From Armatimonadota bacterium (GTDB lineage: Bacteria > Armatimonadota > Fimbriimonadia > Fimbriimonadales > Fimbriimonadaceae): a stretch of DNA of 64,000 nt. The position numbers and the translations under genes were made by a program. The stretch spans positions 62,001 through 126,000 of the forward strand of contig JADFMN010000006.1 in NCBI GenBank assembly GCA_022563855.1. Reading direction: 5' to 3'. Below the pieces are notes generated by a model, which was not told the DNA's origin, searched no databases, and saw only the letters and a program-made list of their open reading frames with translations. Positions 2,071-3,393 of this stretch are shown piece after piece; position 1 is the first letter of the stretch; each line of letters begins with the position of its first letter.

Positions 2071-3213
2071 CTACGGTCTGAGAGCCAATTCGCGCCAGGC
2101 GGCGACGGTGATCTCGGTGCAGAAATGCCGGCCTTCCGCGGTCAGGAACACCGAGCCGTCGCGTTCCTCGATCCAGCCGGTGTCGAGAAACTTTTCAAGA
2201 GCGGAGTGGTCGAGACTCAAGCCCTCAACAGGTACTCCTTCGTTCAGGCGGATGCCGAGCATCCAGCGCTCGAAAGCCAGCGTATCGGCGTCCAAGACCT
2301 CGCTGTCGCACCACATATCGATCGCGCCTTCGAGCGCGTCGCAGTACCGCTCCGGGTGCTTCTGGTTCGTGTACCGCGTGCGTCCGTCATCGGAAGAAGC
2401 AAAACACCCGACCGCTCCAGGGCCGTAGCCGAGATACTCCTCCTCGTGCCAGTAGCACAGGTTGTGCTCGCACTCGAAACCCGGCCTGCAGAAGTTGCTG
2501 ATCTCGTACTGCCGGAAGCCCGCTTTCTCTGCCAAAGAGCAAGCAGAATCGTACATCTGCACCTGCGACTCGTCGTCCGGCAGATCTAGCAGCCCGCGCT
2601 GAGCGTAACGGTGAAACCGCGTGTTCGGCTCGATGGTCAAGCAGTAGAGGGAAAGGTGATCCGGCCGGAGCGCAAGGGCCGTCTTCAAGTTCTGTTCCCA
2701 AGTGCGCGGAGACTGACCGGGCAGAGCAAACATCAGGTCTAGATTCAGATTATCGAACCCGGCCTGCCGCGCGGCTTGCACCGCGCGGGCGATATCGCTC
2801 GCTTCGTGAACGCGGCCAAGTTGGATCAGCTCACCCGATTGAAAACTCTGCGCGCCAAGGCTCAGCCGGTTGAAGCCCGCCGCGCGCATCGCCGAGAACT
2901 TCTCCGCGTCCACCGTGCCGGGATTCGCCTCGCTCGTAATCTCCGCACCGGCAACCGGCGGATGAGCTTCGATCACGGTGCGAAGCAATCGGCATAGCTG
3001 TTCGGCAGAGAGGAAAGTCGGCGTTCCGCCGCCGAAGAAGATCGTCTTCGCTGGTCGCCCTCGCCAGTAGCTTCTCTCAATTTCAGAAACGGTCGCAGCG
3101 ACAGTCCGCTCAATGATCTCACCATCAAGCGCAAAGGAATTGAAGTCGCAGTAGCCGCACTTGCTGGGGCAGAACGGCGTGTGGACGTAAACGGCGACGG
3201 GGTCGAGATTCAC
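2071..3213 (-). CDS. hemW: HemW, radical SAM haem chaperone (CPO-III-like)
   Basis: A 380-aa protein opening with YVHTPFCPSKCGYCDFNSF. This carries the radical-SAM CxxxCxxC cluster (Cys15, Cys19, Cys22) in the form typical of HemW, followed by the FFGGGTP motif and a C-terminal HemN-like domain. HemW binds haem and helps deliver it to respiratory proteins. It was long annotated as oxygen-independent coproporphyrinogen oxidase but lacks that activity in studied members. The GTG at 3213 puts the family's N-terminus exactly in place. That GTG overlaps, as GTGA, the distal stop of the small TGA-containing ORF upstream, implying translational coupling. Confidence 0.93.
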   Translation of the reverse strand: MNLDPVAVYVHTPFCPSKCGYCDFNSFALDGEIIERTVAATVSEIERSYWRGRPAKTIFFGGGTPTFLSAEQLCRLLRTVIEAHPPVAGAEITSEANPGTVDAEKFSAMRAAGFNRLSLGAQSFQSGELIQLGRVHEASDIARAVQAARQAGFDNLNLDLMFALPGQSPRTWEQNLKTALALRPDHLSLYCLTIEPNTRFHRYAQRGLLDLPDDESQVQMYDSACSLAEKAGFRQYEISNFCRPGFECEHNLCYWHEEEYLGYGPGAVGCFASSDDGRTRYTNQKHPERYCDALEGAIDMWCDSEVLDADTLAFERWMLGIRLNEGVPVEGLSLDHSALEKFLDTGWIEERDGSVFLTAEGRHFCTEITVAAWRELALRP

Positions 3214-3380
3214 CGCTTAGAGGTTAGCACGGCGATCAACCCGAGAATGGCGCCACCAAGAACCGGTACCACCGGCTCACGACAACTGATTCAGCCGGAA
3301 CTGATCGCTTTCATCAGCAGGTGATAGCCGAAACCGCCCGCCGCACCGATGGCTGTTCCTACTAGAGTTTCCCAGCGCAT
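3210..3380 (-). CDS. Candidate selenoprotein: 56-aa two-helix membrane protein with in-frame TGA (UxxC motif), DUF6132-like
   Basis: From the ATG at 3380 the frame gives 29 codons, TGA (3291-3293), then 26 more codons to a second TGA at 3210-3212. Reading the first TGA as Sec gives a 56-aa protein with two Gly/Ala-rich hydrophobic helices (about 6-26 and 37-52). They flank SSG-U-ISC-REP, a UxxC redox-type motif. From memory, DUF6132-like proteins share this layout with an SG.CPIT motif. Counting back ungapped from the second-helix LxGAxxG motif, the TGA falls on the conserved Cys. The distal stop overlaps the hemW GTG start as GTGA. A hairpin of SECIS geometry begins 13 nt after the TGA. Alternatives are a pseudogene or a 29-aa peptide. 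An in-frame ATG at 3392 could also serve; TATGAT at 3388-3393 favours a leaderless start at 3380. Confidence 0.72.
3260..3278 (-). promoter_or_regulatory. Putative bacterial SECIS hairpin
   Basis: Twelve nt after the TGA, GAGCCGGT (3278-3271) pairs with ACCGGTTC (3267-3260) over 8 bp with one G-U. The apical loop is the trinucleotide GGT, so it starts with G and begins 21 nt after the TGA. Known bSECIS elements have a G in the first two loop positions and the loop roughly 16-37 nt after the UGA, so the geometry fits. Confidence 0.6.
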
Positions 3381-3387
3381 TACAAGG

Positions 3388-3393
3388 ATCATA
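3388..3393 (-). promoter_or_regulatory. TATGAT -10-like box before the candidate Sec gene
   Basis: The minus-strand TATGAT ends 7 nt before the ATG at 3380, and no Shine-Dalgarno is seen. This is the spacing found at other apparently leaderless genes here. A TTGACA lies too close upstream to be its -35. Confidence 0.35.

Follow-up and report, generated by a model that had tools for sequence, protein, structure and literature searches.

Does the TGA triplet that interrupts a short reading frame beside the haem chaperone gene hemW of this Armatimonadota bacterium end a protein, or does it encode selenocysteine (Sec)? An earlier note, made from the letters of the 64,000-nucleotide stretch of DNA analysed here (the window), had proposed a 56-residue, DUF6132-like membrane selenoprotein at this place, with the Sec in a UxxC motif. 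We conclude that the gene very probably encodes a selenoprotein of a new family, a reading that rests on genome sequences, with no protein-level evidence of Sec. The features concerned are the following.

3210..3380, minus strand: putative selenoprotein CDS of 56 aa, a predicted two-helix membrane protein, including the terminal TGA (from the frame and homologues).
3291..3293, minus strand: in-frame UGA, inferred to be read as selenocysteine (residue 30), from a column that has 60 TGA and 20 Cys forms and tracks SelA.
2071..3213, minus strand: hemW, the downstream neighbour (TIGR00539, 307.6 bits, cut-off 205.4).
3388..3393, minus strand: TATGAT, a -10-like hexamer 7 nt upstream of the ATG (from enrichment among homologues).
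3263..3275, minus strand: SECIS-like hairpin CCGGU-GGU-ACCGG, spanning +19 to +31 when the U of the UGA is counted as 1.

The ATG start lies at 3380-3378, the coding sequence runs from 3380 to 3213 and the terminal TGA occupies 3212-3210; the minus-strand translation is MRWETLVGTAIGAAGGFGYHLLMKAISSG-TGA-ISCREPVVPVLGGAILGLIAVLTSKR-TGA, in which residue 33 is Cys and forms UxxC with residue 30. The frame, its length and the position of the TGA ahead of Cys33 had thus been read correctly in the earlier note, as had the adjacency of HemW, and the GTG start of hemW even shares bases with the terminal TGA of the putative selenoprotein gene (GTGA overlap). An Rfam scan of the window gave no match at gathering scores, and ARAGORN found no tRNA within it; the tRNA-Sec of the host sits on another contig.

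A single in-frame stop first suggests a pseudogene or a sequencing error, in which the TGA would be a true stop, and that several of the genomes are fragmented MAGs speaks for the same explanation. Homologues were searched for in 101 related genomes, using the protein with Cys in place of Sec as the query, and were present in 48 of them: 35 have exactly one in-frame TGA, in the same column as the window, 12 have Cys at that column and one (G029) has neither. A second search, with a profile of these 48 homologues against 291 Armatimonadota genomes, provided 34 extra loci that could be read (25 with TGA, eight with Cys in the loop and one with neither). Within Armatimonadota, the searches total 60 TGA loci (one per genome) and 20 Cys forms at one column, and the Cys homologues anticipated by the earlier note do align with this TGA. 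Substitutions among the homologues at codon positions 1, 2 and 3 number 58, 34 and 154 before the TGA and 44, 17 and 93 after it, a pattern indicating a single translated frame through both halves; a lack of conservation beyond the TGA would have refuted the proposal, and the downstream half proved to be conserved as coding sequence. This conserved recoding signature was computed directly. Since this TGA recurs, well beyond chance, in 60 loci that come from a large number of separate assemblies, is followed by coding-type substitutions, and gives way to Cys almost exclusively in genomes that have lost sel genes (see below), a pseudogene or sequencing error is virtually impossible here and was rejected on the conservation of the TGA.

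A separate scan for named records, which used a closer subset of the alignment, returned mostly Fimbriimonadaceae, Fimbriimonadales and other Armatimonadetes MAGs, and no relative was found in the plasmid records searched. One record titled Methanoregulaceae archaeon (L133, JADZEW010000008.1) shares its gene with G011:C8, which belongs to the window's bacterial family, and the organism name on this record is probably wrong. Two homologues (L062 in G029 and L131 in G047) were found in 1.5 Mb genomes without SelA and have a loop without Sec and Cys; because both residues have been lost there, the helices of these two homologues may have a role separate from the thiol. Ahead of the candidate start, a TANNNT hexamer at a distance of 6-9 nt is found in 23 of the 48 homologues versus 15 of 368 control codons (besides the window, L004, L008, L009, L012-L014, L018-L020, L023, L024, L026, L027, L047, L054-L057, L059, L060 and L064), a placement that suggests leaderless mRNAs for the putative selenoprotein gene.

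A lone TGA inside an open frame leaves the inserted residue unspecified, and the UGA could in principle be read through as another amino acid, by suppression or a changed code. The host genome, however, has the means to insert Sec, in keeping with what the earlier note had called for: a tRNA-Sec (anticodon tca, UCA; 74.2 bits), SelA and SelB are present, together with a SelD that has one in-frame TGA at the usual Sec place (CAG-U-ASKLGP). As computed directly across the relatives, SelA is present in 58 of the 60 TGA genomes versus one of the 20 Cys genomes (Fisher p = 3.5e-15, uncorrected for relatedness, which inflates this statistic), and the distribution of SelB agrees with the SelA pattern. 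The two TGA genomes without SelA are incomplete assemblies, one 74% complete and containing SelB, the other 85% complete and with a congener (G254) that has SelA. The exchange of Sec for Cys recurs inside five genera, in which TGA species have SelA and Cys species lack it: G050 vs G004 and G033 in g4, G005 vs G034 in g5, G232 vs G233 in g128, and G161 and G179 vs several species in g19 and g21, respectively. The expectation drawn from the first set before the outcome of a second SelA search was known, that SelA would be found in the TGA genomes G161 and G179 and be absent from six Cys relatives, was met in eight of eight cases. Only one Cys form (L028 in G049), with the loop TVCTVGCQQGPAVPI and one extra residue, has SelA and SelB in its genome; this case is counted against the association, yet it is not a contradiction of the selenoprotein reading. 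Judged from these gene inventories, the Armatimonadota relatives appear to keep the UGA along with the selenium machinery and to switch to Cys where the machinery is lost. The TGA also still terminates genes, including this gene and many of its relatives, and Cys occupies the site in forms without TGA; insertion of a different amino acid is thus extremely improbable, and a general reassignment of the stop codon was rejected on the conservation and the normal use of TGA as a stop. Sec insertion, as proposed in the earlier note, is supported by every one of these sequence checks and is inferred very strongly, although it is not demonstrated.

A hairpin downstream of the UGA, also computed directly, fits this inference. 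Numbering the U of the UGA as 1, most TGA forms of the window's family have CCGGC-GGU-GCCGG at +19 to +31; in the window and in L003 the sequence is CCGGU-GGU-ACCGG, where one C-G pair has become U-A and the rare codon GTA is used. The consensus CCGGY-GGU-RCCGG is kept through synonymous and paired changes: in 37 aligned sequences, 97.3% of the cells pair versus at most 58.4% with the partners slid, and the mean energy is -8.7 kcal/mol versus -3.6 for synonymous shuffles made with the window's codon use. Since a double change occurs in only one of the five pairs, it is chiefly the energy and the fixed choice of codons that support the hairpin. Three outliers (L064, L127 and L128) have, by eye, different short hairpins near the same place; in the distant TGA forms the hairpin is longer and less uniform, with 74% of cells paired. 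The Cys forms have no sign of a hairpin and use other codons or residues at that stretch. In the E. coli fdhF SECIS, the GGU stands at 22-24 by the same count, compared with 24-26 in the window's family. By its predicted fold, with its place soon after the UGA and a G(G)U in the apical loop, the hairpin fits a bacterial SECIS, and it may itself impose part of the conserved P-A-V-P-V motif on the protein.

The family to which the protein belongs could not be read from the window alone. The window protein did not match the Pfam model of DUF6132 (PF19628) at E 1 or at E 0.1, and single-sequence scans of Pfam and NCBIfam gave only weak compositional matches (holin, LPXTG anchor), which were rejected. 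Like DUF6132 proteins, it has two hydrophobic helices, rich in Gly, that flank a Cys loop, with the Sec aligned to the conserved Cys, and it differs in having SG-U-ISC..PVVPV instead of the motif CP[IM]TSNP. Relatives outside the order resemble DUF6132 more openly, for example L099 with SACAGGG-U-PMTSNPVVAILLGAVIG; in a whole-genome search, the TGA loci of G254 and G255 exceed the Pfam DUF6132 cut-off with their TGA at the conserved Cys, and 15 of the 18 distant members (A3) match the model (best 1.2e-7). Comparison of the profiles A1 and A3 gave a probability of 98.6 and an E of 1.3e-15 over the whole length, with the Sec in register. Because the window protein has no Pfam match and is linked to the family through its distant TGA relatives, it is, on profile evidence, a diverged relative of DUF6132 with its putative Sec at the conserved Cys. 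The DUF6132 likeness claimed in the earlier note thus holds at the level of a diverged relative and not at that of direct recognition by the Pfam model, while its placement of the TGA on the conserved Cys is borne out by both the profile comparison and the distant TGA relatives above the cut-off. To our knowledge, no Sec form of DUF6132 has been described.

Two other likenesses were considered. The XapX domain (TIGR03510 / DUF1427) also comprises tiny two-helix Gly-rich membrane proteins, and five members match it weakly (best 1.1e-4), a resemblance that may be one of composition. The membrane or redox selenoproteins YeeE/YedE, TsoA, TsoB, TsoX and TsoY of a 2026 inventory likewise place their Sec in a motif of the redox type, UxxC for example (PMC13188914); none of 66 members (48 + 18) matches the NCBIfam selenoprotein models (June 2026), including the YeeE/YedE and Tso types, at E 0.1.

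What the protein does can only be inferred from its anatomy and context. An AlphaFold2 model of modest confidence (pLDDT 69, pTM 0.31) has helices at 2-28 and 37-54 and the Sec/Cys loop between them. A single partner Cys, counted directly, accompanies the Sec: 58 of the 60 TGA forms have exactly one other Cys within -8 to +6 of it, at +3 in 29 forms, at +4 in 14 and at -4 or -5 in 12. The UxxC motif described in the earlier note is hence real in the window protein, with a spacing that is not universal in the family. That one partner is kept and yet is mobile suggests, as far as alignments can tell, that the loop is flexible and that Sec and Cys pair in it as a selenenylsulfide. In the mechanism that we propose, SelB and tRNA-Sec would decode UGA codon 30 as Sec, aided by the short hairpin from 19 nt downstream, and in the product two Gly-rich transmembrane helices would form a hairpin, with the Sec and one nearby Cys in the loop that joins them; these two residues would most likely form a reversible selenenylsulfide, and the protein would act as a membrane-anchored thiol/selenol redox relay, probably reduced by thioredoxin. 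The membrane hairpin, the redox activity and the thioredoxin link are all inferred.

The gene neighbourhood bears on this proposal in more than one way. A thioredoxin gene lies directly upstream in five distant TGA loci (L104, L108, L111, L112 and L117), an OsmC-type gene lies downstream in four distant loci (L010, L104, L107 and L111), and a CsoR-family repressor is found in two (L104, 758-1024, and L111, 725-991, in oriented loci). The window's own family has hemW as its neighbour, not thioredoxin, and 34 of 58 family loci have hemW downstream at a distance of up to 60 nt; this could mean that the Sec and Cys, instead of acting as a redox pair, bind a metal or heme or carry sulfur or selenium for HemW or another partner, and a partner Cys that shifts between +3, +4, -4 and -5 is something that a ligand pair might tolerate. 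Against such a role, hemW is absent from the stretch read around the distant TGA forms, some of which have a thioredoxin, OsmC or CsoR-family gene, and the housekeeping hemW may be a chance partner, as the upstream ArgS and Pgk appear to be. We consider ligand binding or carriage unlikely, though it cannot be dismissed.

The overlap with hemW also admits a reading in which the UGA is mainly a selenium-sensing switch, with early termination in the absence of selenium breaking translational coupling to hemW. In the window the stop codon shares bases with the start of hemW, and many relatives have the two genes spaced by -18 to +13 nt, but the same overlap exists in Cys forms (L050-L053, L058 and L120) and many TGA forms have no adjacent hemW; a switch of this kind is very unlikely. 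A thioredoxin-reduced membrane redox relay is favoured over the handling of metal, heme or sulfur, if by no wide measure of certainty, and is inferred from anatomy and context. A more specific version, a minimal membrane selenoenzyme with two Gly-zipper helices whose Sec/Cys pair would link thioredoxin to targets in the membrane or envelope (OsmC-type peroxidases, for instance) by shuttling electrons, or persulfide sulfur, between them, is possible at best and is offered tentatively.

In the distant loci L104 and L111, the order is the CsoR-family repressor, then thioredoxin, the TGA gene and OsmC; the residues preceding the final conserved Cys include His in one CsoR-family copy and Asp-Arg in the other, which leaves copper, persulfide or another compound possible as the inducer.

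A 2026 review lists 119 selenoprotein families and subfamilies, and DUF6132 is not among them (PMC13188914); nor is it named among the new families of the deep-Sep paper (PMC12013277). Our literature search found no report of DUF6132 as a selenoprotein or of a small membrane selenoprotein of this type, and none on selenocysteine in Armatimonadota/Armatimonadetes. With the UGA kept alongside the selenium machinery and Cys used without it, what is seen here appears to be a selenoprotein family absent from earlier lists, although a prior unnamed prediction (among the candidates of a groundwater MAG survey that the 2026 review cites) is not excluded. Ordinary gene calling would miss the gene because the UGA splits its frame into pieces too short to annotate. 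The finding would add to the approximately 119 prokaryotic selenoproteins a very small one, with the Sec between two membrane helices. Since no function is known for the Pfam family DUF6132, its Sec form gives a first testable clue, namely redox chemistry, and the matched Sec and Cys versions inside single genera offer a clean natural experiment on the contribution of selenium. If the proposal is true, the whole phylum would be using selenium in a membrane redox relay some 55 residues long.
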